Notes under the pieces: generated by a model
What the model saw: only the letters and a program-made list of their open reading frames with translations
Databases searched by the model: none
Told to the model about the DNA's origin: nothing
Shown: positions 905-19,368 of the stretch, piece after piece
How positions within the stretch are numbered: the stretch's first letter is position 1
Layout: every line of letters starts with the position of its first letter
Translations under genes and position numbers: made by a program
From: Tepidimonas ignava
GTDB lineage: Bacteria > Pseudomonadota > Gammaproteobacteria > Burkholderiales > Burkholderiaceae_C
DNA: 64,000 nucleotides
NCBI RefSeq assembly: GCF_004342625.1
Contig: NZ_SMAH01000015.1
Span: 1-64,000, forward strand
Direction: 5' to 3'

Positions 905-980
905 GAACTTGCCCATCTATTCCAGACGTCGCCAAGCTGGGAAACTGCGCTCCATCAACACCGATCGACGGAGCTCAGAA

Positions 981-2003: not shown

Positions 2004-3732
2004 CTTCGATCGTTTGCAGGCCCTGCGCGCCCGCCTGGACGCCGAGGCCCTTGGCGAAATCGAGCGCGTGCTGCCGCCGTTGCAGCCCGAGGACGCCGCG
2101 GCGGTGGCGGACGATGACGCCGTGGATCTTGACCGCGACGCCATCCTTGAGGCCGCGCGCCAGCGCCTGGAGCCGGACATCGGCGACGCCATGCCGCGCT
2201 ACCCCGTCGAGGCGCTGGGGCCGCTGGCCGGGGTATGTCGCGCCATTGCCGACGGAAAGCAGGTCGAGGCCGCCATCGTCGGCAATGGTTTGCTGGCGAC
2301 GTCGGCGCTGCTGGCTTCGATCCACTGGGACGTCGAAACCATCGATGGCGACCGCCGTCCCCTGTCGCTGTTCGCGCTGACGGTGGCCGTCTCGGGGGCC
2401 GGAAAGGACGTGTCCGACCGCATCGTCGGCGCGGCGCTGCACCGCTGGCAGCGGCAGGCAAACGAGACCTACCGGCAAGCCATGCGCGACCACGAGGCCG
2501 CGCTGGGCGGCCGCAGGAAAGGCGAGCCGGCGCCGGAGCCGCCGACCGCGCCGCACCGGCTGTGCTCAGACATGACAGTGGAGGGCCTGCGGCGCGCCTA
2601 CAACGAAGGCGTGGCGGCGCAGGCTGTGTTCAGCACGGAAGGCGCCGCCGTGCTGGCTGGGCATGGGTTCGCTGATGAGAACCGATCCAAGACCGCCGCC
2701 GCGCTGTGCAGCTTGTGGGATCGGGGGGACTTGTCGGTGCTGCGCGCTGGTGGCGGTCGATTCGAGCGTAGCGGGCTGCGGCTGTCCGCCCACCTGGCGA
2801 TCCAGCCGGTGGCGGTGACGCAAGCCCTGCACGATCCGCTGCTGGCGCAGATCGGGCTGTGGCCGCGCTTCCTGCTGGCGTGGCCGCCGTCCCCGAGGCC
2901 ACGCCGCCATCACGTCTGGCGAGCGGAAGATGACGCCGTTGTCCGGCGCTGGTGGGCGCGCTGCGAGGAATTGCTGGCGTTGCCCGAGCCGGACGGCGAG
3001 CGCCTGGTCTTGCGCCTGAGCGATGAGGCGCGGCAGGTGCTGGCGGACTTCTTCGAGACCTGCGAGCGCCGCGCCGCGCGTGGCGGTGATCTATGGGGCG
3101 TGCGCCCGTTCGCGTTGCGCGCCTCCGAGCAAGCCACCAGAGCTGCCGGGGTGCTGGCTGCCATCCGTGGGCACGCGGTGGTGGGCGCGGACGATGCGCA
3201 AAACGGCGTGGCACTGGCCGCCTACAGCCTGCAATGCTGGCAGGTGGCGCTGGGCCGCCGCCAGCGCGACAAGGCCGCCGACCACGCCATGACGCTGCTG
3301 CGCTGGCTGCTGGATCGGCCTGGTGCGCGCGCCAGCAACACCGAGATCATCCGGCAAGGGCCGCGCGCGCTGCGCAACGCCGAGGCGCGCGACGCCTCCG
3401 TGGCGCGGCTGGTCGAGGTTGGCGTGGTGCGCGTTCGGGACGGCATCGTGGCCGTGGTCGGCGATTCCCCTTCGCCACCTGCGGCGAAAGCGGCGAAAGC
3501 GGCGAAAAGCCTTGACTGCCAAGGCTTCGCGCATGGCGAAGAAGTGGCGAAAGACGGCGAATCGCCGGCGCATCGTGCCGATCCTTCGCCAGCCGTTCGC
3601 CGCTTTTCGCCAGCCGTTCGCCGTACCGGAAACCTTGCGGCGCAAGGGTTTTCGCCGGATTCGCCGCTTTCGCCGGGGGTGGATGCGGCGAATCATGAGC
3701 CGCTGGTCGACGACGACACGGAGGTGTTCTGA
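1990..3732 (+). CDS. DUF3987 helicase/primase-like protein
   Basis: This 580-aa protein has the DUF3987 (YfjI-type) architecture, common in integrative elements next to primase fragments. A P-loop variant S135-GAGKD is followed by the long helical ATPase-like core. Family members are thought to act in element DNA replication, but the reaction is not established. The start at 1990 has GGGAGG six bases upstream; a second ATG two codons earlier sits on that site. The C-terminal 80 residues are low complexity (AAK repeats, SPAVRR repeats) and are encoded by a dense array of GGCGAA/TTCGCC hexamers. The next gene begins one base after the stop. Confidence 0.75.
   Translation: MRRDDFDRLQALRARLDAEALGEIERVLPPLQPEDAAAVADDDAVDLDRDAILEAARQRLEPDIGDAMPRYPVEALGPLAGVCRAIADGKQVEAAIVGNGLLATSALLASIHWDVETIDGDRRPLSLFALTVAVSGAGKDVSDRIVGAALHRWQRQANETYRQAMRDHEAALGGRRKGEPAPEPPTAPHRLCSDMTVEGLRRAYNEGVAAQAVFSTEGAAVLAGHGFADENRSKTAAALCSLWDRGDLSVLRAGGGRFERSGLRLSAHLAIQPVAVTQALHDPLLAQIGLWPRFLLAWPPSPRPRRHHVWRAEDDAVVRRWWARCEELLALPEPDGERLVLRLSDEARQVLADFFETCERRAARGGDLWGVRPFALRASEQATRAAGVLAAIRGHAVVGADDAQNGVALAAYSLQCWQVALGRRQRDKAADHAMTLLRWLLDRPGARASNTEIIRQGPRALRNAEARDASVARLVEVGVVRVRDGIVAVVGDSPSPPAAKAAKAAKSLDCQGFAHGEEVAKDGESPAHRADPSPAVRRFSPAVRRTGNLAAQGFSPDSPLSPGVDAANHEPLVDDDTEVF
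3507..3527. repeat. Palindrome 1 in DUF3987 3' end
   Basis: Eight-base arms AAGCCTTG and CAAGGCTT surround a 5-base loop. Adding the flanking hexamers (GCGAA and TTCGC) extends the stem to 11 pairs with a two-base bulge. It sits within coding sequence. Confidence 0.6.
3627..3657. repeat. Palindrome 2 in DUF3987 3' end
   Basis: Same design as the palindrome 120 bases upstream: CCTTG and CAAGG arms around CGGCG, flanked by AA/TT runs and by CCGG and CCGG further out. The two share the CCTTG...CAAGG core, so they look like two copies of one REP-like element. Confidence 0.5.
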
Positions 3733-3733
3733 G

Positions 3734-4492
3734 ATGGGCGCGCGTGAGACCTTCCTCGACCTGGCCGCGCGCGGCATCCGGCTGGTGGCACAGGGTGACC
3801 GCCTGGTGGTGACGCCAGCATCCCTCCTGACCGCCGAAGATCGCGATGCCATCCGGCACTACCGCGACGAGCTGCTGGCGCTGCTGACCGAGGGGCCGGA
3901 TTCCGACCACCGCCGCGCCGGAGGGACTTCCGCCACGCCAGTCCCTGCCGAAAGGGCCGCCGATCCGGTGGTGCTTTCCGACTGGCAAGCTGCCGACCGT
4001 GCTTACCAGCGTCACGCCTGGCGCTGCCCCGCCTGCTCATCGGCTGGCCGGGGCTACGGCAGCCGCTGCCCGACCGGAGCGGAGCTGTGGAAGGCTTACA
4101 CCGCACAGCCTGGTCCCGCGACCAGCAAGCCAGAGCGCCAGCCGCAGCCCGCCGAGCCGCCGCGCCATCCGTTTGAGCGCGAGCGTCGCAACTGGACGCC
4201 GGCCACCGAGCCGGAGCTGCGGCGCATGGCCGCGATGTTCGAGCGCGCAAGGGCGCTGGGCTTCTCGTCGGAAGAGGCCGATCGCGCGGCTGATGTCGCG
4301 CAGTGGCGCGACCGCACGGGCGACGACCGGCGGCTGTGCCTCGAGTGTCGCAGCCTGCGCGCCGGGGCCAGCAGCCGCTGGTGGTGCGCAGCGCAGCGCC
4401 AGCCGCTGCCGCAACAGCTGGTGATGCAGCCGCACCGATGCGAGCTTTTTGACGACTACAGCACCAAGGAAGTGCATAACGATGGGGATTGA
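3734..4492 (+). CDS. Hypothetical protein with TubC-like N-terminal domain
   Basis: This is a 252-aa protein. The first 50 residues (FLDLAARGIRLVAQGDRLVV followed by a helix ending in RDELLALL) resemble the TubC N-terminal docking domain often seen on island proteins of this type. The middle and C-terminal parts contain cysteine pairs (CPACSS near residue 97, LCLEC and later Cys near residue 200) that could bind zinc. It is co-transcribed with the DUF3987 gene, and its end overlaps the next small gene by 11 bases. Function unknown; a role in element replication is inferred only from context. Confidence 0.6.
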   Translation: MGARETFLDLAARGIRLVAQGDRLVVTPASLLTAEDRDAIRHYRDELLALLTEGPDSDHRRAGGTSATPVPAERAADPVVLSDWQAADRAYQRHAWRCPACSSAGRGYGSRCPTGAELWKAYTAQPGPATSKPERQPQPAEPPRHPFERERRNWTPATEPELRRMAAMFERARALGFSSEEADRAADVAQWRDRTGDDRRLCLECRSLRAGASSRWWCAAQRQPLPQQLVMQPHRCELFDDYSTKEVHNDGD

Positions 4493-4673
4493 CGTTCTGG
4501 TCCAAGACCGCCTGCACGGCAACCCCGCGGCCCGCGCCACGAAAGCCGTCAAGCCCTGCGCCACCGCGCAAATGATCGTCACGGACACCGGCGGAGAGCA
4601 GCACTTGGCAGGCTTGATGAGATTCGACGGCGACGCGATGCGCCAGCTGCTGACGCTGGCCGATGGCGATTAG
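4482..4673 (+). CDS. Small hypothetical protein, 63 aa
   Basis: A short reading frame that begins inside the end of the preceding gene and stops at a TAG. I see no motif. After the TAG the same frame stays open for roughly 40 codons with protein-like composition, so the original gene may have been longer and interrupted by this stop. Confidence 0.4.
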   Translation: MGIDVLVQDRLHGNPAARATKAVKPCATAQMIVTDTGGEQHLAGLMRFDGDAMRQLLTLADGD

Positions 4674-5066
4674 CTGGCCGCGGTTGTCGAGCTGCCGGTC
4701 ACGACGTGCATGACGAAGGTCGGCGAGACCAATTTCGCGCTGCGGGTAACGGTGCACCAGGTGTTGACGCTGTATCAGGTACCCCGCCGACATGGGGCCG
4801 CTCGAGGCGCGGCGTTGCGGGATGCGTCCGCAGCCCGCAGCGATGCCGCAGTCCGCCAGCGGCACCACGCCACTGCGCGGAGCGCAATGCGCCAAGCGCA
4901 AGACAATGATCTGCTCGGCCCGGCCCCCAATCTTCCGTAGGCTGGAGTGGACCACCAGCTCGCACGCTGGTATCCGTCATGTCTGTGTGGGCGGATGCTC
5001 TGAACCGCCTCTACGATTTCCGGGACGGTTCAGTGCCGGATGGAGCCGAAATTTGCATGTGCAGCT
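4674..5066. other. Intergenic stretch between replication module and defence operon
   Basis: 393 bases with no gene I can support. The frame of the 63-aa ORF continues after its stop for about 40 codons, then degenerates. Short frames on both strands (4699-4980 -, 4979-5182 +) have no start signals or recognisable content. The two flanking modules are convergent here, but no clear T-run terminator is visible on either strand. Confidence 0.5.
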
Positions 5067-8000
5067 TCATGCGGTGGCACTTCCGGTGGCATGCGGTGTG
5101 GCGGCGTTTTGTCGGTCCCACGCCTCCAGCACCAGCCGCCGGGTGCGGTACTCGCCGTAGGCGCGAATCTCGCCCTCCTTGAGCACGCGGAAGGTCTCGC
5201 TGGGGTAGTCGGCGCCCATCACATCCGCGGGGTCGAGGATGTAGCGCAGTTCGTCGCGGGTAAGGCCGTACAGGCGCGCGTAGTACGCATCGAGCTCGGC
5301 GCGCAGCAGCGCCCGGCGCTCGGGGTCCCAGGCGAAGGGGCGGCCGCGCTCGCTGGCCGGGCGCGGGTCGTAGGCGGCCAGGTCGTCGTACCAGGCTTTG
5401 AGGTCGTGCGCGGTGTAGGTCAGCTCCAGCACGCGCGGGACGATGAAGGCCAGGTCGGCGGGGGTGTAGCGGGAGGGGGGTAGCATTGGGAACTGCTTCA
5501 AGTAGTGGTAAGTCAAGGACGTCCCACCAACTTTCTGGCGCGCGACAAAGTCAAGCACGAGAGCATCCAGATTCCCGAAGAAGACAGCGGCCAAGGTAGG
5601 TTCGGTCCCTGGCCCAAACCGGAACAACGGTAACTTATGCCCTACCCCCACCCTCGGCACCACGGACGCAATCACCGTGCGAAGGACGTGCGCACTGGTA
5701 ATGTCGCGCCAGCCCATCAGCCACCGCGGACTGCGGCGGTCCATCCAGGCGTCGAGCAGCGCGGCCAGCGCCGCATCGCCGGCGCGCAGCGCCTGGGCGA
5801 GTTCGGCGAGTTCGTCGTCGGCCAGCCGCGCCTCGAGGTTCTGCTGCGCCCACTTCGGGAATTCGGCCGGCGCGTTCTTCGTCGTCAGACCTTCGCTGCG
5901 CAGCGCGGCGAGCAGGCGCGGGAAGCGCGCCTCGAGCTGCGCCTCGGTGGGCGCGACGTGCGGCTGGGCCTGCGCGGGCGTCCAGCCTGCGGGGCCTGCC
6001 GCGGCGCCGACACCGGCGGCTTGGCGGTGGAACAGCTCGCCGGCCACCCACTGGGCAAGCGCCAGCAGCAGGGCGGCCCGAGCCACCTCCTGCGCGGCAC
6101 GCTCGCCCCGGCCCTGCTGCGCCGCGAGGAAAGCGAGCCACGCGCGCGCCACAGCACGCGGCACGCGGGCAATGCGCGCGAGCACCTCGCGCTCGTCCAC
6201 CCAGTAGCGCGGGCGCACGCTGTAGGCCGGATCGGCCTTGCGCGCCTCGGGCACGTCCACCGTGTCCGGCTCGCCGCCGGCACCGGCGGCCTCGTAGCTG
6301 GCCCAACGGTGGTCGAACTGGTGGATCATCTTCGCCTCGTACAGCGGCAGCCGCGGCGGCTGGCCGGGGGCGGCGGGGGCGTCGAAGAACAGGCCGCTGT
6401 CGTTGGTCATGTTGAACAGGCCCTGGGAGAACGAGATGCCCCACGGATTGACCTCGGGCGCGAGCACCCGGCCCTCGGCATCGACCACGGCCTCGCGGAT
6501 GAGCACGGGGGCGGCGCGGTAGAGCTTTTTGGTGAGCTCGGCATCCGCCCGGCTGCGGAACACCGGGCAGGTGCGGGTGTTCGGGTTGATGAGCGCGAAT
6601 TCGTCGGCGGCGAGGGTGAAGCGTCGGCGGGCGTCGTGAATTTGTGCAGGTTGTCGAGCGAAGAAGACGAGCGACGCTGGCTCTGCTGTCGGGCTGCCAC
6701 ACAACGTCAGAAGAGCGAAACGGAACGAGTGATGGACTGAAGGGAAGACAAACTCCTCGTTCTCCAGACACAGCAGACTACGTAGGTAGCCGCCCACAGC
6801 GAGGCGTTCAAAGTAGGCCTTGGTGGAGTCGTCGGTGGCGATGCCGGTGGGCACGATGAAGCCGGCTCGCCCCCCGGGCCGGGTGGCCTGCAGGAAGGTC
6901 TCGGCAAAAAGGGCGTAGGTATTGAGCTTGCCAAACGCCGAGAGCGGAAAGCGCCCTCCCGCTCGAAAAAACAGGTTGGAAGCGTCGTACTGCCGCTTGG
7001 CGGCGTGGAACTCTCGCCACAGCCACGGAGTGGACCGCTCCAGCTCGGCGATGGCTTTTTTGCGCTTGTCCCCCGCCAGAGCAGCCACCGAAGGCGCGCG
7101 TGACGCGAAGAACTCTTCTTCGCTGATCTGCAGCTGCTCCCACGGCGGATTGCCGAGCATCACGTCGAAGCCGCCACGCGTGGCCACCTGCGGGAAGGCC
7201 AGCCACCAGTGGAACACCCGATGCTCGCGGCACAGTTGGCGTGCAGCTTCCTCCACCCCCTGCGGCAGCGGTTGGCCGTGGCGCACGCGCCAGAGGTCGC
7301 TGGTCTGCGGTACGGTGTCTTCGGTGTCGCGGCGCTTGGGCGCGAGGAAGGCCGCCACGTAGAGGTCGGCCAAGCGGGCCAGGGTGCTGGTCTGCGCCTC
7401 TTCCTGCAACCGCTGCCAGGCGGCGCGCTTTTCGGCCAGGCCCTCGGGGGTGTCGTCGGCCATGGCCTCCACGTCCAGCACGCGCGCGGCCAGTTCCTCC
7501 TCAGCGAACAGGCTACCGGCTGACTGAGCCTGCCAGCTCTGGCGGTCGGCGCGGTTTTGCTTCTTGAGCGCGGCGGCCACCTCGCGTTCGTCGCCGGAGA
7601 GGGCCGTGTAGGCTTCGTCCGGGATGCCGCCTTGAAGCACCTTGGGGTCGAGCACGCCCAAGAGCGCGTCGCCCACGCGCAGGTGGTGGTCAAGGAACGT
7701 CAGCGGCCGGTCAGGGCAGTAAGCCTCCAGCCACAGCGCGGTGCGGGCCAGCTCGATGGCCATGGGGTTCTTGTCCACGCCGTAGAGGCAGTGGCTGACC
7801 ACGTCGCGCAGGGCGTGGCGGTAGTCGTCGGGGGTGGGGGCGCCGCCTACGCGCTCGGCGGCGGCACGCTGTTGCGCCACCTCGTCGGCCAGCCGCCGCG
7901 CCGCGGCCAGCAGGAAGTGGCCGCTGCCACAGGCCGGGTCGCAGATGGTGAGCGCAAGCAACGCCTGCACCGGCTGTTGTGGGTGGTCGCGCAGGGTTTG

Positions 8001-9524
8001 CTGGATGACCGGCTCCAGGGCGCTCTTGATCAGCTCCTGCACCAGGGCGTCGGGGGTGTAGTAGCTGCCGGAGAGCTTGCGCGCGTGACCGCGGGTGCTG
8101 GCCTGTGTGTCACCGTCGCCGACGAAGGCCAGGCGCGCGGTGGCGGGAGTAGTCAGGCCCTGCACGTCGGGCACCAGCTCCAGCAGACTTTCGTAGACGC
8201 TGCCGAGCTCCTCCGGCCCCATGTCGCGGTAGTTGATGCGCGCGAGGCCCGTGTCGGTGCGGGTCCAGCCGAGGTGGAAGATGGCGCGCAGCAGGTGGGC
8301 ATTGTCCAGGCGCGCGGCGTCCAGCACGGGACACTGGTCGGCGCCGAAGAGGCCGCCCAGCGCCGGCAGCCCAAGCGCCGGCTCGCCACGCTGCAGCGCC
8401 GCAAAGGTGATGGTGAGCGCCTGCCAAAGGTCGTCGTGCGGGTCGTGGCGCTGATGTCGCAGCGAGCGCCGGCGCAGCCACGTCAGGGAGTAGCCAGCCA
8501 GGTAGCGGCTGCGCGCCTCGGGGCTGGCGCCCGGGGCAAACAGCAGGGGCTGGCCGCTGGTCGGGTCGCGCCGGTCCTCCACGGTGGCCAGAAAGATGAG
8601 GCGATAGACCAGCCGCAGCAGCTCCTCGAAGTAGGCTTGGGGACCATAGTTGCCGTCGGGAGCCCGCAGTCGCTGGCGCAGCGCGTCGTTGGCAGGGTGG
8701 CGCAGGAAGCCGGTGCCCAGCTCGCGCAGCGCCTGCGTCACCTGATGGCGCAGACGGCCGCGCACGGTCTGGCCGGTGGCCAGGCCCAGCGCGCGCCAGC
8801 GCTCCCAGGGGCAGTCGGCGGCGCTGGCGGGCGGCTTGCCGCCATAGCCGGCAAAGCGGCTGGCGTGCGCCAGCAGCCACAGCGCCGTGAAGTCGGCCAA
8901 CAGGGCCTGGCTGAAGATGGCCTCCAGGTCGAACTCGAGGTAGGTGGGACGGGTGAGGCTTGCACTGTCGCGCAGGATGCGCAGCTGCAGCCCGTTGCTG
9001 ACCAGGCCCCAAAGCCAGCCGTCGCGGGCGTTGAGTGCCTGCTGCGCGAGCTGAAACGGGCTGCGCTGGCGCACTTGGCGGCCATCGGCGGCGAGCTGGC
9101 CGTAGCGCTCGGCACGGCTGTCCAAGCCCTCGGTGTGCGCGGCCAGTACCAGCGGCACGTGGCCGCCGTGGGCAACATGAGTAGGCGCAGGGTCATCGCT
9201 GCGGTCGGCCGGGGTGACGTCGGCAAAGTGCAGCACGTGGCGCAGCAGCGGCAGCAGCCAGGTCTGCACGGTCAGCGTCCACGCATGGGCATCGTGACGC
9301 TGGCGCGCCTGCTCAAACGACTGCCACAGCCCCAGCGCGATGTGAAAGTCGCGGCGGATCTCGTCGCGCAGTTTCAGACCCTTGGGAATGTCGTAATGGC
9401 TTTCGGTCTGTTCGGTCGCGCCGGGGTCGGCCAAGTGGGTCAGGCGCAGCAGCTCTTCGGCGGGCAGCAGGCCACCTTCCAGGCGCACGGCGGTGTAGGT
9501 GAGGACGGGAGCGCGGGTGGACAT
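5067..9524 (-). CDS. DrmMI-like N6-adenine DNA methyltransferase (Eco57I type)
   Basis: A 1485-aa class I DNA methyltransferase. The SAM-binding motif is D529-PACGSGHFL, preceded by SGSYYTPDALVQELI as in Eco57I-type enzymes; the catalytic motif is N792-PPW, giving N6-adenine specificity. About 500 residues precede the catalytic domain, and about 700 follow it and probably recognise the target. It matches the size and layout of the DISARM methylase DrmMI and, less well, BREX PglX. It is the last gene of the operon: its ATG lies 5 bases past the SNF2 gene stop. The expected job is to mark host DNA so the helicases spare it. The frame extends upstream of 9524 but only by overlapping the SNF2 gene. 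Confidence 0.85.
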   Translation of the reverse strand: MSTRAPVLTYTAVRLEGGLLPAEELLRLTHLADPGATEQTESHYDIPKGLKLRDEIRRDFHIALGLWQSFEQARQRHDAHAWTLTVQTWLLPLLRHVLHFADVTPADRSDDPAPTHVAHGGHVPLVLAAHTEGLDSRAERYGQLAADGRQVRQRSPFQLAQQALNARDGWLWGLVSNGLQLRILRDSASLTRPTYLEFDLEAIFSQALLADFTALWLLAHASRFAGYGGKPPASAADCPWERWRALGLATGQTVRGRLRHQVTQALRELGTGFLRHPANDALRQRLRAPDGNYGPQAYFEELLRLVYRLIFLATVEDRRDPTSGQPLLFAPGASPEARSRYLAGYSLTWLRRRSLRHQRHDPHDDLWQALTITFAALQRGEPALGLPALGGLFGADQCPVLDAARLDNAHLLRAIFHLGWTRTDTGLARINYRDMGPEELGSVYESLLELVPDVQGLTTPATARLAFVGDGDTQASTRGHARKLSGSYYTPDALVQELIKSALEPVIQQTLRDHPQQPVQALLALTICDPACGSGHFLLAAARRLADEVAQQRAAAERVGGAPTPDDYRHALRDVVSHCLYGVDKNPMAIELARTALWLEAYCPDRPLTFLDHHLRVGDALLGVLDPKVLQGGIPDEAYTALSGDEREVAAALKKQNRADRQSWQAQSAGSLFAEEELAARVLDVEAMADDTPEGLAEKRAAWQRLQEEAQTSTLARLADLYVAAFLAPKRRDTEDTVPQTSDLWRVRHGQPLPQGVEEAARQLCREHRVFHWWLAFPQVATRGGFDVMLGNPPWEQLQISEEEFFASRAPSVAALAGDKRKKAIAELERSTPWLWREFHAAKRQYDASNLFFRAGGRFPLSAFGKLNTYALFAETFLQATRPGGRAGFIVPTGIATDDSTKAYFERLAVGGYLRSLLCLENEEFVFPSVHHSFRFALLTLCGSPTAEPASLVFFARQPAQIHDARRRFTLAADEFALINPNTRTCPVFRSRADAELTKKLYRAAPVLIREAVVDAEGRVLAPEVNPWGISFSQGLFNMTNDSGLFFDAPAAPGQPPRLPLYEAKMIHQFDHRWASYEAAGAGGEPDTVDVPEARKADPAYSVRPRYWVDEREVLARIARVPRAVARAWLAFLAAQQGRGERAAQEVARAALLLALAQWVAGELFHRQAAGVGAAAGPAGWTPAQAQPHVAPTEAQLEARFPRLLAALRSEGLTTKNAPAEFPKWAQQNLEARLADDELAELAQALRAGDAALAALLDAWMDRRSPRWLMGWRDITSAHVLRTVIASVVPRVGVGHKLPLFRFGPGTEPTLAAVFFGNLDALVLDFVARQKVGGTSLTYHYLKQFPMLPPSRYTPADLAFIVPRVLELTYTAHDLKAWYDDLAAYDPRPASERGRPFAWDPERRALLRAELDAYYARLYGLTRDELRYILDPADVMGADYPSETFRVLKEGEIRAYGEYRTRRLVLEAWDRQNAATPHATGSATA

Positions 9525-9529
9525 GGGCT

Positions 9530-12385
9530 TCAGGCGGTGGCGGCGTCGGGCAGCAGCACATAAAGGCCGATGACGTCGGCAGGCAACAGGGCGGTGACGT
9601 CCAGTGCGCCGCGGGCGTCGGCGGCATCCCGCACGCGCCGGTGGTCGGCCAGCAGTTGCGCGGCCTGCGCGCGGGCCAGGGCATCCAGCGCCGGCTGCCA
9701 CGTGGGCAGGGCCTGCAGCGCGGCCTGCAAGTGGCGCTGGCGCACGGCAGCGGGCATGTTGCGGCTGGCGGGCTGGTGCAGAAGCGCGCGGGCCTGCGGC
9801 GCCGTCAAGATCCGTGGTGTCCCATCCGCCGCTACGGCGATAGCCAGGGCCTGTTCGCACAGCATCAGATGAGTGCCGTGGGCACCGCTGCGCGTCAGGC
9901 GATGGCGCAGCCGCAGCAGCAGCACGGTGGTCTTGACGTTCACCCCGGTTACGAAAGCCGCACCACAGCGCGCAGCAGCGGGCTCGCCTTCGTCGCCAGC
10001 GCCTTCCAGCGCCTGCTCCAGCACATAGTCGGCCAAGGCCGCCACGATCGGGTGGGTGCGGTGCAGTTCGATGCAGCCGGCGGCGGCCGGGGGCTGCAGA
10101 CTCACGCGCAGACTGCCTTCCCAACCGAGGGTGGCCAGCCGCTCGCGCAGCGCAGGCGGCAGGCTGCTCACATGCAGCTTGTGGTGCGCCGCAGCGCCGT
10201 GGCCAGTGGGCTCGAGCTCAGCGCCCAGGCGTGCCATGACACGCTGCACGAAGCGGGCCACATCCTCCTGTTGACCAAGGGCCTCGTTCATCTTGTCCCA
10301 TTCAGGCAGCACGTCGGCTGGCCGCAGGCGGCGCTGGGCGAAGATGCTGCGGCTTTGCTTAGCCTTGTCGCGAGCGCTTTGCCAGGCGAGCTCCAGCTCG
10401 CGGCCTGCGGCATCGTCGGCGCCGAAAAGGTCCAGCGTGCCTTGACGCCGCAGCAGCCCCGCGCGCTGGCCGCGCAGCAGCACCGCGTTCATCAGGGCCT
10501 GCTCCAAGCGCTGGCCATCGTCGGGCATCGGCACCAGCACACCCAACTCGCGCCGGATGCTTTCGGCCTTGCGCAGGATGACCTCCAGCACTGCACCGTC
10601 GACGGGGTTGTTTTCGCCGTAGAGCATCGTGCAGCGCACCTCGCGCGCGCGCTGGCCAAAGCGGTCGACGCGGCCTTCGCGCTGCTCGTGCCGGGTGGGA
10701 TTCCAGCTCAGGTCGTAATGCACGACGGCGTCAAAGAGGCTTTGCAGGTTGATGCCTTCTGCCAGGCAGTCGGTGGCTACAAGTACGCGGTGGTCGGCCT
10801 CACCGAGCCGCAGCACGGCGTCTTCACGCTCGTCGGAGGTGAGCTCGCCGGTTACGGCTGCCACTTGAGCGTCGCGCAAGTGCTCGCGCAGCGCCTCGGC
10901 CACGTAGTGGGCGGTGGCGATGTAGCGACAGAACACCACGGGGTGGAAGCCATCGGCCAGAAGCTGACGAACATGGGTCAGCAAGGTCTTCAGCTTGGGG
11001 TCGTGACTGGGGCCGTGCAACGCGCGGGCCGCCTCGATGAGGGCCTGCAGTCGTGCGCCGTCCTCGGTTTGCGCGGCAGGTTCGAGGTCATCGCCGGAGA
11101 GGTCGTCTTCGTGGCCGTCGAGGATGCGCTCGCTGGCTTGCTGCTCCAGTTCCTTCCACGGCGCCGTTTCGCCATCCCCCGGCAGACCGCCTTGAAGACG
11201 GGTAGTCAGCGCCCGCACCGCCGCTGCCGGCGAGGACGAGATGCAGCGCAGCAGGGCCAGCGCCGCCCACCCGTTCATGCGCTGTTCGCGCTGGCCGCGG
11301 CCCTGCGAGCGCTCGACCAGCTCGCGTGCGTAGTCCAGCACGTCCTCGAACAGCCGCCCCCAGTCACCGCCCAGGCGGTAGGTCAGCTCCGCGGAGCGGC
11401 GGTCGGGGAAAAGGGTGTTGTCATGCCACTCGGCGATGTCGGGACGGCGGCGCTGGACGAAGTGCTGGGCCAAAGCTTCACGCAGGGCGGCGCGCCTGTC
11501 TGGAGCAGCCTCGCGCAAGCCGGCGAATTCGGGCCTGAGCAGGCCCAGCAGGTTGTAGAAGGCCTCCTCGTCGCCGCTGTGCGGGGTGGCGGTCAGCAGC
11601 ACCAAGTGCCGTTCGGGATCATCGGCCAGTCCGCGCAGCAGCTGATAGCGCAGCTGCCGTCCCTGTCCGCCGTAGGTGCAGGTATGCGCCTCATCCACGA
11701 TGACGAATTCCGGACAGGCGCGCTGGAAGGCATCGCGGCGTCGGTCGGACTTGATGTAGTCCAAGCTGACGATGGTGTAGGGGTGCGCCTCGAACAGCGA
11801 GACGCCGGGGGCCAGTTCACGCTCAAGCCGGTCGGCGGTGTGGCTGCGGACGACGACGGCGTCGATGTGGAAGCGCTCGGCCAATTCGCGCTGCCACTGC
11901 TCAGTCAGGTGTGGCGGGCACAGCACGGCAAGCCGCCGGATGTCGCCGCGGTCCAGCAGTTCGCGTGCGATCAGAGCCGCCTCGATGGTCTTGCCAATGC
12001 CGACGTCGTCGGCGATCAGCAGCCGCACCACCGGCATCTTGAGCGCCATCAGCAGAGGGACGAGCTGATAGGCCCGCGGCTGCACGGCGATGTGGCCAAA
12101 GCTGCGCAGCGGGCCGGCGCCGTGGCGCAGGCTCAGCATCAGCGCATCAAGCAGCAAGGCGCTGGCGGCGTGATCTCGCGCCTGGGTGGGGTCGGGCGGG
12201 GCGAAGCTGGCGGGCTCGGGTGGCTGGGGCTCCAGCGGGACGTAAAGGATGGTCTCGTCCTCTTCGCTGCCGCCCAGAGGGCGCAGGTGCAGCTCGGCAC
12301 CGCGGGAGGCTGGCATCACGATCCATTCCCGGCCGCGTGCGCGCACGAGCGAACCGGGCGGAAAGTCGAGGGTGTGGGTCGTCAT
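9530..12385 (-). CDS. DrmD-like SNF2-family helicase
   Basis: A 951-aa SNF2/RapA-like ATPase. The N-terminal ~100 residues precede the helicase core. Walker A is D126-DVGIGKT133, motif II D231-EAH234, motif III TATPHSG, and motif VI QREGRVDRFGQ. The domain order and length match DrmD, the class 1 DISARM translocase, which is paired with the adenine methylase as here. Its ATG overlaps the stop of the upstream helicase gene (ATGA), so the two are translationally coupled. It probably translocates on or remodels incoming DNA; direct biochemistry is not implied by sequence. Confidence 0.85.
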   Translation of the reverse strand: MTTHTLDFPPGSLVRARGREWIVMPASRGAELHLRPLGGSEEDETILYVPLEPQPPEPASFAPPDPTQARDHAASALLLDALMLSLRHGAGPLRSFGHIAVQPRAYQLVPLLMALKMPVVRLLIADDVGIGKTIEAALIARELLDRGDIRRLAVLCPPHLTEQWQRELAERFHIDAVVVRSHTADRLERELAPGVSLFEAHPYTIVSLDYIKSDRRRDAFQRACPEFVIVDEAHTCTYGGQGRQLRYQLLRGLADDPERHLVLLTATPHSGDEEAFYNLLGLLRPEFAGLREAAPDRRAALREALAQHFVQRRRPDIAEWHDNTLFPDRRSAELTYRLGGDWGRLFEDVLDYARELVERSQGRGQREQRMNGWAALALLRCISSSPAAAVRALTTRLQGGLPGDGETAPWKELEQQASERILDGHEDDLSGDDLEPAAQTEDGARLQALIEAARALHGPSHDPKLKTLLTHVRQLLADGFHPVVFCRYIATAHYVAEALREHLRDAQVAAVTGELTSDEREDAVLRLGEADHRVLVATDCLAEGINLQSLFDAVVHYDLSWNPTRHEQREGRVDRFGQRAREVRCTMLYGENNPVDGAVLEVILRKAESIRRELGVLVPMPDDGQRLEQALMNAVLLRGQRAGLLRRQGTLDLFGADDAAGRELELAWQSARDKAKQSRSIFAQRRLRPADVLPEWDKMNEALGQQEDVARFVQRVMARLGAELEPTGHGAAAHHKLHVSSLPPALRERLATLGWEGSLRVSLQPPAAAGCIELHRTHPIVAALADYVLEQALEGAGDEGEPAAARCGAAFVTGVNVKTTVLLLRLRHRLTRSGAHGTHLMLCEQALAIAVAADGTPRILTAPQARALLHQPASRNMPAAVRQRHLQAALQALPTWQPALDALARAQAAQLLADHRRVRDAADARGALDVTALLPADVIGLYVLLPDAATA

Positions 12386-15300
12386 GTCGTGGAGGGGGTA
12401 CCGGTGCCGAACAGGTCGGCATGTTGCGCGAAGATCGCGGGCCAAGTTGCCGGATCCTGCCCGAAGCGCACGACGAGGATACCCAGCGCTTCGAGCTGGT
12501 GGTTGATTCGCTGATCGTGCTGCTGTTGCGCGGGGTTTTGGTGGTGCGGACCGTCGATGTAGATCGCGACCTGCATGTCGTCGTAGTAGAAATCCGCGCG
12601 GGTTTGAGCGGCCGGAATGAGGTGCTGAACCCGGTCGGGCGGCCGCAGGCCATGATCCACTACATATTGCAGCCAAGCCCGCTCCAGGCTGCTGCCGGCA
12701 CCACGTTGCAACTGCTGCAGTTGCTCGTCTGCGGTACGGCCCTGGGTGCCCATTTCGATCTGTGCCCGGGTCAGTCGCGCAAGCAGCCGCAGCAACAGGC
12801 CCTGACCTGCCTGGTCCTTGCGGTCGATGTGCCCATGGTCAGGTTGGTTGTAGTAGGACAGCAGGCAGCGGTAGCAACCCGCCTCGCAGTAAGGCTGCCC
12901 TTTGGCGTCGAGCTCTTCCTGCAGGGCTTCGACCAGCCATTGGCTTTGCCCATCGGGCAGCCGGTAGTGCATGGCACGCAGCGCCTCCACGGCCACCCGC
13001 GCCAGTGCCGCCGGTTCGGTGGCCAGGCGCGTCAGCACGCCGGCGCCGCCCTCCGCTGCCTCGAAGAAAAGGATGGCACGGCGCTGCTCGCGTGTGGGCA
13101 AGGGTTCGGCCATGAGCTCGCTTTCCTCGAGCTGGAACGCTGTCTCGATGCCTCGCTTGAGCGCGTATTGCAGGGTGATCAGGGTGGAAGGCTGTAGCGG
13201 ACCCAGCGCCTCGTGCGGGCGCACGATGAGGATGTTGCGCCGATCCTCCACGTAGGGGACGATGCGTTGGGCAGGCGTGGTGGCCGCGACGGCTTCGTGC
13301 GCGTCGGCATCCTCGCCTTCTGCGCCCTCTTCGCGCCAGTAGCCGGTCAAGGGGTCGATGTTGAAGCCGCGGATGGCCTTGTTGGCCCGCCTGCGCCAGC
13401 CGAAGTTCATGCGCCAGACGGTGGCGCTCGGGGCGTACTGCAACTGCAGCAGCGGCCCCCGCTCATCGCGAACGATGGCCTGCACGACCTGCAGCCGTCC
13501 GTCCACCTCGGCAAACTGAAGCGTGGTCTGCATCTCGTAGCCTTGGCGGATACGGTCTTCCTCGTTGGCCGTGATGCGCTCGACGCGTTTGGTGGAGACG
13601 TTCTCGATGCGGTAGAGCTCGCGCACTTCGGTTGCGCCGGACAGGTCGGCCCCACAGGAGATGCAACGCTCGGCGTCGCGCTGGCTGCGGAAGTGACCGT
13701 AGCCGCAAGAGGGACACAACCGCGCGGTCTCCACCGCCAAGCGCGCGCCGGTGCTGACCTGATCTTCGGCCTGGATAGTGAGGATCGCCTTGACGACGCG
13801 GTACTGCGCACCTTCGTGGTAGATAAGGCTGTAGGGGCCGAACTCCGACAGCGCCAAAAAGCGCGGTCGCGACAGAAAGCTCTCGCGCGCCAGCGCCCCC
13901 TTTTGCCCTGGCAGATACGCCAGCAACGGCAGGCGCGGAAAGTTGTAGCCCGGCAGAAACCCCTGGCTGGCCAAGTAGCGGTAGGTGTTGAAATCACTGT
14001 TGAGTGGGTTGTCGCCCGCCAACAGCAGGTCACGCTGGCGACGTGCCTCGTTGTGGCGCTGCTGGGCTTCGCGCCGTTCGCGTTCGCTGGCCGCGGGGTT
14101 GTTTTCGATGGCGTGGTTGAGGGCGATGGCACGCTGGGTTGCGCGATACAGGTCACGCCAGCGCTGCAGCGCACGGTCCAGCATCGCGGCGGCCTGCTGG
14201 AATACTTGGTGCGCCCAGGTGTCGTGGTACCAAGGCGCGCGCTCGGGCGTGAGCTCTCCGGCCAGCATGTTCAGCACGCGAAGACCGCGCTGGTGCGCCG
14301 CTAGCGTTACCGACGGCTTGCCCAAGGCTTCGGCCAGCGCGGGCTCCAGCGGCATATCGGGCTGGCTCAGGTCGAGCAGCTTGGCGATGCTGCTCTCGAG
14401 CTGTTGCCGGGTCTCGGCCAGCCAGATCGCATGCAGGTGCGCCTGGATCAGTTCGCGGTTGGCCAGATCCAGCTGTGGCGGGCGAACCTGACCATGCACC
14501 ATGCGCACCGGATCGCGGAAGTAGTACTGGTCGTGAGGCGACTGCGCGGCACAGTAGGTGATGACGAGGGCTGGCTGGCCGGCGCGACCGGCGCGGCCGC
14601 TGCGCTGCGCGTAGTTGGCGGGTGTCGGGGGCACATTGCGCAGGTAGACGGTGTTGAGGGTCGCGATGTCTACGCCCAGCTCCATTGTCGGGGAGCAGAA
14701 GAGTACCGGCAGGCGATCGAGCGCCTGCCCGGTGGCGGAGGCATGCGTCTGTCGGTCTTTGGGCGTGTAGCGAAAGCGTGCCTCGCGCTGCAGACGTACG
14801 TCCTGATCCACTTGGGCGGTGTGCTCGCGCGCCTCGCACTCCAGCAGCCAGTGCACCGGCTGCCCTAAACCTGCGGCGACGTTGGTGTACAGATCGCGAA
14901 AGAACCGATTGACCTTGCCATCGTCCACTGCCTCCGGGCTAGCCAAGCGCCAGCGCAGCGCAGTTCCGTTGAGCTGCCAGCCCGGCACGCCCCATTCGGT
15001 GTCCAACCGCTGCACCAGCCCCCAGCGTTGGGCTGCCACGAGGATGGCGCCGATGACGGTGCCCCAGCTGCGGTCGTTGAGGTCGGCCGCCTGCGGGGCC
15101 GAGTCCCAGAAGCTCACTCGGCGCAACGTGCGCGCCAGCCTAGAACGGGCGGTAGCCAGCAGCACGGCATCGTCCGGCCGCCGGGCTCGGCGCTGCGCCA
15201 GGTTTTGGGGGTGTCGCGTCAGCATGACCCGGGAAGGCAGCAGCGCTTCGTCCTCCGCGAAGCCCCACGGCTGTTTGAGCAGTGAGTAGCCGCGCGAGCG

Positions 15301-17727
15301 CATTCCCTCCAGCTGGTTGGGGTCGAGGTGAAGCGAGGCAATGGCCAGTCCGCCGCGCATCGTATCGAGCACGGCACGCAGCGCCTTGGCACGTAGCTGC
15401 GGCGTAGCATCCCTCAGGAGCGCTGGAGCGTCATGCCATGCGTCCGGGTCAGCGGCGACATCCTCCAGATCCACGTAGTCGATGGTCAGCAGCTTGAGCT
15501 GCTCGAGATTCGGGTTGTTGAAGCGCCAGCCGTGACGCACGTCGCGCAAAGCACGGTAGGTCAGAATCTGCCTCATGAGCGCCTGGGCATCGCGGCGCTG
15601 TTGGCCCTTAGCCGTAGGCTGCTGGAGGTATTCGCTAAGCAACGCCGGATCGTCTCCGCCGAAACCGAGCGCGGCGAACACGCGGTCGCCCACGATGTCT
15701 TCGGTCAGCTCGTGCGAAGGTTCCTTCTGGAGTGCAGCCAGAAGCGCTGCACGCAGCAGCAGCACTTGGACGAAGTCGTTGAAGTGGCCGGCCTGCAGCG
15801 CCGCGTCCTGTCGGTTGTCGGTGAAGCCAAGCACCTTCTTGGCCTCCAGCGGCAGTTCGGTGTCGGCTTCGTGCAGGTAACGCAGCGCCGATAGCGTCAA
15901 AACCGTGGTGGCCGAGCTGCGCCCTTCGCCCGAAAGCGAGGTCAGCCGCACCGAGTCCTTGCTTGGGCCTTCGGTGGTGGTGCGGCAAACCAGACAGAAC
16001 CGGAACTTGCCGGGCATGAACCAGGCTGCCAAGCCGTCGCCACCCTGGATGAGGCGTCCATCCGGCAGCACCCGCACCGGTTGGGGCACCACATGACGGT
16101 ACGAGCGCCTGATGCGCCAACCGTCGGGGCCGCCTTCCTCCAGCCAAGTTTCGGGATAGGCGTCGGGATCGTTGGGGTTCCACAAGTCCCCGCTGAAGTC
16201 CGGCGCCAGAAAACCATGCTTGAGGTTGCTTTCGTCCTCTCGCTGGGGACGATCGTCGATGTCGCGTGGCTCAAACTGGGGATGGCCGTCGTCGGTCTCG
16301 GTCAGCCAGACGGGGTGGTATTCCTGTCCACACTCCCGGCAAAAATGGGTGGCGTAGTAGCGGCGGCTGCGCGCCTCGTCGCCGGTGACGAACTGCTGGC
16401 CATCCAGCGTGACATGCCGCTGCCCCGGCGGCTCCAGCGTGCTGAAGACTTTGCCGCCGCCCGAAATGAATTGGTGCAGCTTGAAGGCAAATAGGCTGCG
16501 GCCGTCCGCATCACGAACCTGGTGGGCCAGCAGCAGGAACTCCTGCAGGTAGCGACGACAAGTCGGCTGGGGCTGGCCGCTGTCGCAGCTGAGCCGCTCG
16601 GCCGCCTGCGCCAGAGTCAGAGGCTGGGCGCGCTGGGCCACGCCGTCCTCGTAAGCCAGTCCTAGGGTCAGCTCCACCCATACTGAAACAGGATGGGCTG
16701 CCAGGGCCTCGAACGTGGCCTGCTCCGGGACACCCTGCTGGATCGCTTCGGCCAAGCACGGGCGGATGGTCTCGAGCGTTTCGTGGGCGGGGGTGATGCG
16801 CTGCAGGGTTTCGCCGATGACATCGTCCTCGGTGAAAACTTGGCCGAAAAGGCGCTGGGCTACCTCGGCCACCACGCGTTGGCGCTGGCGCCGGTCACCG
16901 TCGGTGGCCATCGTGGCCGACGTCCCGATGCAAATGAGAGAATCATCTCCTGCCAAAGCCTCGCGCACCCGCCGCACCAGCAGTGCGACATCGGCACCTT
17001 GGCGGCCGCGGTAGGTGTGCAGCTCGTCCAGAACGAGAAAACGCAGACCACGGGCATTGCGCATGACCATCTTCGCGTCCTCTTGCTGCTTGGTCATCAG
17101 CAGCTCGAGCATCATGAAGTTGGTCAACAGAATGTCCGGCGGGTTGGCGGCTAAACGTTCACGCTCGGCCTGATCCTCCTGTCCGGTGAAACGGCCGAAG
17201 GTGACCGCCTGCCGGGCGGGATCGGCCCCCAGAAACTTGGCCAGCTCCTCCAGCTGCGAGTTCGCGAGGGCGTTCATCGGATAAACGATGATGGCGCGCG
17301 TGCCGGGCGCCGCGCCCTGCTGGCGCAGCCGCAGGCAATGATCGACGATCGGGATGATGTACGTGAGCGACTTGCCCGATCCCGTGCCGCTGGTGACGAT
17401 GTAGCCCCGCCCCTGGCGGGCCGCCTGGATGGCTTGCACCTGGTGCCTGTGCAGCCGCAGAGGCGTGCCGGCGCTGGTGGCGCTTTTGCCGATTCGGAAG
17501 ATTTCCGCACAGGCGGGGTGCAGCAGCCCCTGCGCCACGAGTGCATCCACGCTGCCGCCGTTTTCGAAGGTCGGGTTGACCTGGATGAGCGACTCCGGCC
17601 AGAAGCGCTGACTCTCGTACTCCGCATCGATGGTCGCGCGCAAGTCGTCGGCCTTGATGGTGGTGAAGCTGCGCGTGAAACGCTGGTAGTCTTGGATCAG
17701 TCGCTGCCGAAATTCGAAGACGTTCAT
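12382..17727 (-). CDS. YprA/MrfA-type helicase with DUF1998 and DUF559-like nuclease tail
   Basis: A 1781-aa protein. Walker A is G114-TGSGKS120 and motif II D234-ELH237; the second RecA domain carries Q1041-RSGRAGRAG. This is the superfamily 2 YprA/MrfA layout, with a large insertion between the RecA domains. A C4 zinc cluster (CPSCGYG, CISCGAD) precedes the DUF1998 signature C1614-EAGC1618-YRC1621. The last ~75 residues form a DUF559/Vsr-like fold: D1712, D1725-G, H1728/H1729, D1738-x-R1740, then LGILVVRF. The usual Glu before D1725 is Tyr, so nuclease activity is not certain. It combines what DISARM splits between DrmA (helicase) and DrmB (DUF1998). No DrmC phospholipase D is nearby; the nuclease tail may replace it. 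Confidence 0.85.
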   Translation of the reverse strand: MNVFEFRQRLIQDYQRFTRSFTTIKADDLRATIDAEYESQRFWPESLIQVNPTFENGGSVDALVAQGLLHPACAEIFRIGKSATSAGTPLRLHRHQVQAIQAARQGRGYIVTSGTGSGKSLTYIIPIVDHCLRLRQQGAAPGTRAIIVYPMNALANSQLEELAKFLGADPARQAVTFGRFTGQEDQAERERLAANPPDILLTNFMMLELLMTKQQEDAKMVMRNARGLRFLVLDELHTYRGRQGADVALLVRRVREALAGDDSLICIGTSATMATDGDRRQRQRVVAEVAQRLFGQVFTEDDVIGETLQRITPAHETLETIRPCLAEAIQQGVPEQATFEALAAHPVSVWVELTLGLAYEDGVAQRAQPLTLAQAAERLSCDSGQPQPTCRRYLQEFLLLAHQVRDADGRSLFAFKLHQFISGGGKVFSTLEPPGQRHVTLDGQQFVTGDEARSRRYYATHFCRECGQEYHPVWLTETDDGHPQFEPRDIDDRPQREDESNLKHGFLAPDFSGDLWNPNDPDAYPETWLEEGGPDGWRIRRSYRHVVPQPVRVLPDGRLIQGGDGLAAWFMPGKFRFCLVCRTTTEGPSKDSVRLTSLSGEGRSSATTVLTLSALRYLHEADTELPLEAKKVLGFTDNRQDAALQAGHFNDFVQVLLLRAALLAALQKEPSHELTEDIVGDRVFAALGFGGDDPALLSEYLQQPTAKGQQRRDAQALMRQILTYRALRDVRHGWRFNNPNLEQLKLLTIDYVDLEDVAADPDAWHDAPALLRDATPQLRAKALRAVLDTMRGGLAIASLHLDPNQLEGMRSRGYSLLKQPWGFAEDEALLPSRVMLTRHPQNLAQRRARRPDDAVLLATARSRLARTLRRVSFWDSAPQAADLNDRSWGTVIGAILVAAQRWGLVQRLDTEWGVPGWQLNGTALRWRLASPEAVDDGKVNRFFRDLYTNVAAGLGQPVHWLLECEAREHTAQVDQDVRLQREARFRYTPKDRQTHASATGQALDRLPVLFCSPTMELGVDIATLNTVYLRNVPPTPANYAQRSGRAGRAGQPALVITYCAAQSPHDQYYFRDPVRMVHGQVRPPQLDLANRELIQAHLHAIWLAETRQQLESSIAKLLDLSQPDMPLEPALAEALGKPSVTLAAHQRGLRVLNMLAGELTPERAPWYHDTWAHQVFQQAAAMLDRALQRWRDLYRATQRAIALNHAIENNPAASERERREAQQRHNEARRQRDLLLAGDNPLNSDFNTYRYLASQGFLPGYNFPRLPLLAYLPGQKGALARESFLSRPRFLALSEFGPYSLIYHEGAQYRVVKAILTIQAEDQVSTGARLAVETARLCPSCGYGHFRSQRDAERCISCGADLSGATEVRELYRIENVSTKRVERITANEEDRIRQGYEMQTTLQFAEVDGRLQVVQAIVRDERGPLLQLQYAPSATVWRMNFGWRRRANKAIRGFNIDPLTGYWREEGAEGEDADAHEAVAATTPAQRIVPYVEDRRNILIVRPHEALGPLQPSTLITLQYALKRGIETAFQLEESELMAEPLPTREQRRAILFFEAAEGGAGVLTRLATEPAALARVAVEALRAMHYRLPDGQSQWLVEALQEELDAKGQPYCEAGCYRCLLSYYNQPDHGHIDRKDQAGQGLLLRLLARLTRAQIEMGTQGRTADEQLQQLQRGAGSSLERAWLQYVVDHGLRPPDRVQHLIPAAQTRADFYYDDMQVAIYIDGPHHQNPAQQQHDQRINHQLEALGILVVRFGQDPATWPAIFAQHADLFGTGTPSTT

Positions 17728-17765
17728 CGTCTGACTTCCTCATCAGGCCTTGGCCGTGCATGGAC

Positions 17766-18083
17766 TCAACCGCGTCGCCGCGACTGCAGCCCGAACATCA
17801 CCCCCCAGACGCGCGCGTAGGCGTCGTGCAGATCATCGTCGGCGACGCTGGCCTTGAAATTGCCGTAATCCACCTCGCGCAGCCGCTGCGCGATGGTCTC
17901 GGCCACCACCTCGCGCGGCACCACCGCCCGGTAGCGGTAGTCGGTGTGCAGCGACTCGCGCACCGGGTAGCCCGGAAACACCCGCTCGATGTCACCCGCG
18001 CGGCGCGCCCGCACCAGCAGGCTATCCGGCGGGCACTCCTTAGACACGATGGACAGAAAGGCGTCGTTGAGGCAGATCCACAT
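17766..18083 (-). CDS. Small hypothetical protein in defence operon, 105 aa
   Basis: It starts MWICLNDAFLSIV and consists of short beta-strand and helical segments, with RVFPGYPVRESLHTDYRYR in the middle. I recognise the sequence type as a small conserved protein found beside defence or mobile genes but know no function. A purine-rich GGGGGT precedes the ATG. It lies 28 bases after the Nudix gene and 38 bases before the helicase gene, all on one strand, so it belongs to the operon. Confidence 0.7.
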   Translation of the reverse strand: MWICLNDAFLSIVSKECPPDSLLVRARRAGDIERVFPGYPVRESLHTDYRYRAVVPREVVAETIAQRLREVDYGNFKASVADDDLHDAYARVWGVMFGLQSRRRG

Positions 18084-18111
18084 TCGCGTATACCCCCTTT
18101 CCCTGTTCCTC

Positions 18112-18837
18112 TTACCCCGCACCCGACCACGGATCCGGCATGCGCCCACCGTGGGCCTGCAACACCTTCTCCACCAGATCGACCACCTTGTGGTCGTAGG
18201 GCGAATCCAGCACCTCGCGCGCACGCTTCAGCGGCACCAGATGCACCGCCTGACTCTCCCAGCCCATGTCGGTCGGCGTGCCCCCCGTCCGCTTGGCAAG
18301 GTAGTAGCGCGTGCGCGTCGTGCTGCGATCCACGTCGCCCAGGAACGCCACGATGTAGGCCTTCAGGCCCGTCTCCTCCCACGCCTCCTTGATCGCGTTG
18401 GACTGCCAGGACGACCACTCGTCCTCCTCGAAGCGCCCTTTGGGGAAGGTAGCCGCGTAGCCGCCGAAGCCGTTGGTGGGCGATGCCATCCACAGCCGCC
18501 CGTCGGGCTCCATGATCACCAGCCCGGTCGAGAACTTCTGCCCGGGCTTCAACGGCGCCACGTCCGGCTCGTCCTCGATGATGAGCTGCCCGTCCACCTC
18601 GCCCCAGCCCTCGGCATCCTCCGGCGGCTCCCACGGCTCAAACGGCACGCCGTTGAGCGCGCCCACCGGCAGCTCGCAATGCGGCGTGATGGTGGCAATC
18701 TGCGCCGGGTTGGTCAGGCCCTGCAGCACGGGCTTGTGCGGCCGCTTGATCAAGACGTCCTGCCCGGCATCGTCGGGCCTCAGGTGGAAGGCCGGCTCCT
18801 CCTCGTAGGCAAAGACGACTTTCTTCTTCTGGATCAA
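18112..18837 (-). CDS. Nudix-box hydrolase, first gene of defence operon
   Basis: About 241 aa. The C-terminal half holds a Nudix box: KGRFEEDE...KEAWEETGL. Compared with the canonical G-x5-E-x7-REUxEExGU it has two extra residues in the middle, and Arg is replaced by Lys; the metal-binding EE pair is kept. The N-terminal half (KKKVVFAYEEEPAFHLRP onwards) is not a domain I recognise. The start is a choice: no in-frame ATG exists near the 5' end. I use TTG at 18837 because AGGGAG lies nine bases upstream and conserved-looking sequence begins there; TTG at 18921 is possible. Such enzymes hydrolyse nucleotide derivatives, which could remove a phage or signalling nucleotide. Confidence 0.7.
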   Translation of the reverse strand: MIQKKKVVFAYEEEPAFHLRPDDAGQDVLIKRPHKPVLQGLTNPAQIATITPHCELPVGALNGVPFEPWEPPEDAEGWGEVDGQLIIEDEPDVAPLKPGQKFSTGLVIMEPDGRLWMASPTNGFGGYAATFPKGRFEEDEWSSWQSNAIKEAWEETGLKAYIVAFLGDVDRSTTRTRYYLAKRTGGTPTDMGWESQAVHLVPLKRAREVLDSPYDHKVVDLVEKVLQAHGGRMPDPWSGAG

Positions 18838-19251
18838 CTTCCGGTTCTCCCTGGGAACGGTTTCTTGGGATGGGCGATGCCGGCCCACCTGAGCGACGAA
18901 ATGACCGGCGACAAGCGACAAGCGGTGGACACCTTGTCAGGCAGGCTGTCGCCGAGCATCCCGATCGACACGGGTCAACGCCAATCCATGATAGCGCCGG
19001 CGAAAGCGGCGTAGGCCAGGCCCCAACTCCCCTTTTTAGGGGAGAACGACCATGCGCAGGCTTGCCGCAAGCTTGTCGGCACCGGCATCTCTGGACCGAC
19101 GTCATCGATCCAAGGCCCGCACGATCCGGACGTGCTGCCGCCAGCGTCAGCCCCATGGACCGCAGCCCTGCCATGCGCGAACGGCTGGAGCAAGAGGGCC
19201 GCCACTTGCCAAAACTGGCTACATGGTGGCTACATGGCGGCGAGCGCCCAC
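18838..19251. other. Leader region of defence operon and island end
   Basis: Over 400 bases without a supported gene. It must contain the promoter of the defence operon on the - strand, but I cannot pick one with confidence. It contains a perfect 6-base inverted repeat CTCCCC-TTTTTA-GGGGAG at 19027-19044, and an 11-base tandem duplication at 19216-19237. Short open frames here on both strands have no recognisable content. Confidence 0.5.
19216..19237. repeat. 11-bp tandem duplication near tRNA-Lys
   Basis: TGGCTACATGG is present twice, back to back and perfect, about 55 bases from the 3' end of tRNA-Lys. Short direct repeats at this distance from a tRNA 3' end can be recombinase arm-binding sites, but there is no further support in the window. 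Confidence 0.4.
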
Positions 19252-19276
19252 AAAAAAGCCCGCTTGCTGTCGGGCT
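19252..19276 (-). terminator. Rho-independent terminator of the tRNA operon
   Basis: On the - strand the sequence reads AGCCCG, an 8-base loop, CGGGCT, then six T. It lies 16 bases beyond the CCA end of tRNA-Lys and would end the tRNA-Ala/tRNA-Lys transcript. Confidence 0.85.
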
Positions 19277-19292
19277 AAGTCGTTGATTTTTT

Positions 19293-19368
19293 TGGTGGGT
19301 CCTGTAGGATTCGAACCTACGACCTACGGATTAAGAGTCCGCTGCTCTACCAACTGAGCTAAGAACCC
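19293..19368 (-). tRNA. tRNA-Lys (anticodon CUU)
   Basis: A complete 76-base cloverleaf including encoded CCA. The acceptor stem is GGGTTCT/AGGACCC with a T-G wobble. The anticodon stem GCGGA/TCCGT encloses the loop CTCTTAA, giving anticodon CTT. The T arm is intact with TTCGAAT. Its 3' end points toward the accessory region, which makes it the likely integration target of the island. Confidence 0.96.

Follow-up and report, generated by a model that had tools for sequence, protein, structure and literature searches.

A three-gene ARMADA Type I locus on a tRNA-Lys island of Tepidimonas ignava, and its proposed mark-and-cut mechanism

The minus strand of the window, the 64,000-nucleotide stretch of Tepidimonas ignava DNA that we analysed, carries five co-directional open reading frames in the order Nudix hydrolase, a 105-residue protein (P105), YprA-family helicase, SNF2 helicase and methyltransferase (Table 1). 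Nudix and P105 are 28 nt apart and P105 and YprA 38 nt, the YprA and SNF2 genes overlap by 4 nt, and 5 nt separate the SNF2 and methyltransferase genes, which bears out an earlier note's description of five co-directional genes with overlaps or gaps under 40 nt. Pfam confirmed the identities that the note had given to the Nudix protein, the YprA helicase with its MZB domain (formerly DUF1998), the SNF2 helicase and the adenine methyltransferase, and the motif check and Pfam found the helicase motifs, MZB cysteines and methyltransferase motifs it had read. YprA has GTGSGKS at 114, DELH at 234 and QRSGRAGR at 1041, the SNF2 protein has GIGKT and DEAH, and the methyltransferase has DPACGSG at 529 and NPPW at 792. 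The catalytic motifs of all three large proteins are intact and there is no frameshift. Nearly all of the 80 relatives that a genome scan returned from the databases have these three large genes, arranged in this order, so the arrangement of the core genes is not due to chance.

Table 1. Features of the locus and of its carrier island, in window coordinates
Feature	Position	Strand	Evidence and remarks
Right part of mobile island	1..19292	.	Synteny with complete island G200:C192; integrase
DUF3987 protein, inferred replication gene of the island	1930..3732	+	Pfam PF13148, E=1e-53
PglX/DrmMI-like N6-adenine DNA methyltransferase (ArmB-like)	5067..9524	-	1485 aa; Pfam Eco57I, N6_Mtase
Variable part of methyltransferase, residues about 750-1350, likely specificity region	5475..7277	-	47-81% identity between alleles
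BrxHII/DrmD-like SNF2 helicase (ArmA-like)	9530..12385	-	951 aa; Pfam SNF2-rel_dom
YprA-family SF2 helicase (ArmC-like, ARMADA Type I)	12382..17727	-	1781 aa; Pfam DEAD, Helicase_C, MZB; PADLOC DruE; Type I clade
Putative C-terminal Vsr-like nuclease domain of YprA, residues 1677-1774	12406..12699	-	DUF559, AlphaFold, Foldseek, residue conservation
MZB (DUF1998) zinc-binding domain of YprA	12862..13173	-	Pfam; C1614, C1618, C1621 99% conserved
P105, small protein	17766..18083	-	105 aa; Nudix partner; not a conserved ARMADA gene
Nudix hydrolase	18112..18837	-	Start TTG, no ATG; Pfam NUDIX, E=4e-10; P105 partner
tRNA-Lys(CTT), integration site	19293..19368	-	ARAGORN; its 3' 51 bp (19293-19343) are the right-hand repeat

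The three large genes are of a kind already known. ARMADA, described in 2025, comprises a YprA homologue, a BrxHII-like helicase and a PglX-like methyltransferase (Bell et al. 2025, preprint, PMC12458937), and the Tepidimonas locus is a further example of ARMADA Type I. The earlier note had mentioned a recent report of YprA systems related to DISARM under this name, and the preprint is that report. In its main text the Type I genes generally run YprA, BrxHII, PglX, which is the order in the window, and Type II runs BrxHII, PglX, YprA and then the GajB-like ArmD (PMC12458937); the window order differs from the latter and no helicase gene follows. The E. coli Type II locus (L122) shares the three protein families with the window but differs in its gene order, its additional ArmD helicase-RelE gene and a longer YprA, which is 22% identical over the alignment. 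The Type I locus on the Deinococcus radiodurans megaplasmid (L126), in contrast, has the same order, YprA and SNF2 proteins 41% and 45% identical to those of the window, and intact nuclease residues, although its methyltransferase is annotated as two ORFs.

The phylogeny of the YprA helicase, which the earlier note had suggested as a check, agrees with this assignment. In a maximum-likelihood tree with a small reference set of ARMADA and Druantia sequences, the window protein falls inside the Type I clade with support of 0.99, leaving Type II and Druantia I and III outside. The references came from plasmid records (E. coli, Haematobacter and Streptomyces for ARMADA II, Marinobacter for Druantia III, Nitrosococcus for Druantia I, D. 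radiodurans and Caballeronia for Type I), and the neighbours of the window protein are betaproteobacterial homologues with 62-64% identity. Type I YprA is described as having two beta-barrel CxxC motifs before RecA2, one zinc module in the OB region and a BrxA-like helical insert after RecA1 (main text of PMC12458937). The window protein has C463/C466/C578/C581 at the beta-barrel CxxC position and C1338/C1341/C1355/C1358 in the OB region, all 99% conserved, and these predicted zinc modules match the description; the region for the insert (residues ~300-450) exists. A housekeeping MrfA/YprA, stand-alone or MrfB-linked, was considered and rejected, as defence partners are present and an MZB protein of any kind occurs in only 3 of the 11 genomes of the genus.

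The last ~100 residues of YprA gave a weak match to DUF559 (Pfam, E=0.001). An AlphaFold model of this domain, made with 32 homologues, has an alpha-beta-beta-beta-alpha-beta core with a pLDDT of about 90. Among PDB entries Foldseek ranks the catalytic domain of I-Bth0305I first (probability 0.99, with a modest E of 0.022); this enzyme is Vsr-like, and its active site is of the E-D-H-D type. The corresponding residues E1682, D1712, H1729 and D1738 are intact in the window protein. Among the 44 homologues classed as intact (by D1712, D1725 and H1729) they are found in 43, 44, 44 and 44, respectively; most of the other 36 of the 80 have lost them together. The model and the conserved residues suggest that YprA ends in a Vsr-like nuclease domain with an intact active site, as in Type I, where the published C-terminal Vsr nuclease is of the active type and predicted to be active (PMC12458937). 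The absence of the PLD nuclease DrmC, to which the earlier note had drawn attention, is real in that the operon has no PLD gene, but a nuclease does not appear to be missing, as DUF559, AlphaFold, Foldseek and residue conservation all point to one fused to the C-terminus of YprA.

The locus is the cargo of an island inserted at tRNA-Lys, as seen from the 51-bp tRNA-Lys repeats, the integrase and synteny with a complete island in Tepidimonas sp. SKYG89. A perfect copy of the 51-bp repeat lies on a separate contig of the same genome (G000:C24:5729-5779), and homology to the closest Tepidimonas genome begins exactly at the 3' end of the tRNA-Lys, at 19293. In the SKYG89 island (G200:C192, about 23 kb), segments equivalent to C24:5729-9941 and to window positions 1-18083 are joined. 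The first of these segments is the left end of the island, with an intact Arm-DNA-bind/Phage_integrase gene next to the left repeat; the other island genes include a Gp49-type toxin gene, a transposase-like HTH gene (in the SKYG89 copy) and the DUF3987 gene. None of the genomes compared, whose left flanks differ, showed a clean, unoccupied integration site. Other ARMADA systems are also reported to be tRNA-borne cargo of mobile islands (PMC12458937). A patchy presence, in 3 of 11 genomes of the genus, and a tRNA-borne island fit a defence cargo.

SKYG89 is also the nearest named record to the window system. Between the two (METHYLTRANSFERASE) YprA is 98.4% identical, SNF2 93.3% and the methyltransferase 81%. 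The methyltransferase divergence is concentrated after or around the NPPW motif, with blocks 84-97% identical before residue 750, 47-81% at 750-1350 and 88-92% after 1350. PglX/MmeI-type enzymes carry target recognition in the corresponding region. The divergence at 750-1350 would therefore fit a replaced sequence specificity, though it is not proof of one; a fixed YprA alongside a diverged methyltransferase region is what one would expect if it is the marked sequence that varies.

The fused nuclease has a different history elsewhere in Type I. Of the 36 YprA proteins that are not intact, 34 form one clade with support of 1.0 in a tree built without the nuclease domain (members among L030-L079), so the loss is old; of the other two, L017 resembles a separate loss and L023 is truncated. 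Members of the nuclease-dead clade keep a remnant of the domain. The third genome of the genus (G209:C6, L136) encodes another ARMADA Type I helicase, 48% identical to that of the window and branching with this clade. We found no mention of the clade in the main text of PMC12458937, and to that extent it is new at the level of the family.

Many relatives have further genes downstream of the methyltransferase, one for an SMC-like ATPase of ~660 residues that weakly resembles LmuB (PADLOC E=4e-11) and one for an HNH_2 nuclease. In many Type I loci (L005-L008, L029, L032, L048 and others) the SMC/LmuB-like gene lies directly against that for the methyltransferase or overlaps it, often with the HNH_2 gene next. 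This neighbourhood, too, was not found in the main text of the ARMADA paper (PMC12458937). An HNH gene is nearby in 24 members of the nuclease-dead clade, most of those checked, one of the 24 being interrupted (L032), and L034 has no HNH gene in its genome; 14 loci were extended downstream beyond their 10-kb flanks for this search, and linkage in L032, L078, L041, L045, L054 and L074 was judged from coordinates only. Within the 10-kb flanks an intact Vsr domain and an HNH gene had seemed mutually exclusive, an idea rejected when the extension placed HNH genes near Vsr-intact systems as well, at distances of between 0.07 and about 9 kb past the gene before them. A handover of the nuclease function to HNH is thus no more than a lead, as HNH_2 genes are common overall. 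We can offer only tentatively, as a possibility that may well prove wrong, the picture of ARMADA Type I as a platform whose nuclease can be exchanged. The fused Vsr domain would have been inactivated once, in the ancestor of the 34-member clade, and a neighbouring HNH nuclease would have taken over its role, often with the SMC/LmuB-like ATPase; Tepidimonas-like lineages would keep the fused nuclease alone, and sister systems would swap the specificity region of the methyltransferase while the helicase stays fixed.

Other explanations of the locus have to be weighed against these results. The earlier note had framed it as a variant of class 1 DISARM that has fused DrmA to DrmB and lost DrmC, and the SNF2 and methyltransferase proteins do match models of its DrmD and DrmMI (PADLOC, 298 bits for DrmD; DrmMI, at 218 bits, is the best model for the methyltransferase). 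The profile search of the large proteins that it suggested gave a divided answer, as the DrmMI, DrmD and DruE models match but the NCBIfam cut-offs for DrmA, DrmD and DpdE are missed. The SNF2 protein scores 348 bits with DISARM_DrmD, below the cut-off of 610, and no window protein reaches that for DrmA; YprA scores at most 52 bits with the PADLOC DrmA models against 306 with DruE. Searches with the DrmA and DpdJ families found no match in members of the class, nor in 14 control genomes; as the controls were equally silent, these searches yielded no outgroup and carry no weight. Class 1 DISARM has DrmA, a separate DrmB and the PLD nuclease DrmC, with its helicase on another branch (PMC12458937), whereas the window has a single-chain helicase-MZB protein. 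A helicase fused to a Vsr nuclease is an architecture of ARMADA and Druantia (PMC12458937), and the tree places the window helicase in ARMADA Type I. A DISARM variant is thus very improbable. Druantia Type III is closer in its DruE, a YprA-family helicase-nuclease and the top PADLOC match of the window protein, but it has PLD nuclease domains and the partner DruH, and lacks an SNF2 helicase and a methyltransferase; the locus has neither DruH nor a DruA-D partner, and the tree places its YprA elsewhere. The SNF2 protein was also considered as DpdE and rejected, as it scores 202 bits against an NCBIfam cut-off of 500 and no other Dpd genes were seen. A PADLOC model labelled DpdE, PDLC02853, gives a full-length match of 730 bits to the ARMADA SNF2 helicase. 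The cluster behind this model probably contains ARMADA proteins, and annotation tools may miscall ARMADA as Dpd.

The two remaining alternatives concern how many genes make up the system. The earlier note had read all five as one defence operon; on such a reading Nudix and P105 would be working subunits. They are co-directional with the core at gaps of 28 and 38 nt, and the sister island of SKYG89 keeps P105 upstream of YprA, but that island (L003) gave no match to Nudix, and neither gene was found in any other ARMADA locus (for 65 of the 80 loci the upstream sequence extends 1 kb or more). Homologues of P105 occur in phage contigs, plasmids and other genomes without ARMADA. In L138, L143 and L110 they are neighbours of Nudix, and in L109, L111, L112, L113 and L118 they share a single ORF with it (NUDIX confirmed by Pfam in the last); elsewhere they lie among Sir2, MavL-type macrodomain and WYL genes. 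A five-gene operon is therefore improbable, and we treat P105 and Nudix as a separate module, independent of ARMADA. P105 itself matched no family in Pfam, PADLOC or NCBIfam, and a fold search gave no credible match; our guess is that the pair perhaps acts on ADP-ribose-type nucleotides. The opposite concern, that the three-gene system is itself a remnant, arises because the SMC-like and HNH genes of many close relatives are missing from the window, and a search of its genome gave no SMC-like gene either. The system may thus be reduced or inactive, the Tepidimonas lineage having lost the downstream genes and the three left behind no longer defending the cell. This is unlikely, as all catalytic motifs are intact with no frameshift, the SMC-like gene is missing from deep Type I lineages too, and YprA is 98% conserved between the two Tepidimonas islands. 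Apart from these missing neighbours and its additional P105 and Nudix genes, the locus does not differ in its core from Type I, with which it shares gene order, a single-chain YprA with MZB, one OB zinc module and a Vsr-type nuclease, clade and tRNA-borne carriage (PMC12458937).

We therefore favour, with a probability of about 85%, a three-gene ARMADA Type I anti-phage system on a tRNA-Lys integrative island, working by marking and cutting. The methyltransferase would mark host DNA at the sequence set by its variable region. YprA, aided by the SNF2 motor, would load on unmarked, infection-associated DNA that exposes single strands and translocate along it. Its Vsr-like domain would then nick or cut this DNA, stopping phage replication while the host survives. 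We infer the activity of the locus, its substrate, the discrimination by methylation and the order of events by analogy with Type II ARMADA and with DruE, a YprA relative and helicase-nuclease that loads on 3' single-stranded DNA, assembles and cuts long DNA; on the same grounds the locus would restrict DNA without the mark. In E. coli, Type II is anti-phage and non-abortive, and requires Walker motifs and NPPW (PMC12458937). A non-abortive phenotype at the window locus would be an extrapolation, because these tests concern Type II only, where armD is essential (PMC12458937), and armD is absent from the window locus as from Type I. A SAM-site mutant of ArmB in Type II keeps partial activity (PMC12458937), so discrimination may rest on more than methylation.

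What is new lies at the level of the family: the nuclease-dead clade, the frequent SMC/LmuB-like gene and an allele divergence focused on the methyltransferase. As a Type I system the Tepidimonas locus is compact, with intact nuclease residues and no fourth gene. Because the methyltransferase is the main difference between the two Tepidimonas alleles, self-recognition by methylation is directly testable, and the nuclease-dead clade provides a natural experiment for identifying the effector nuclease.
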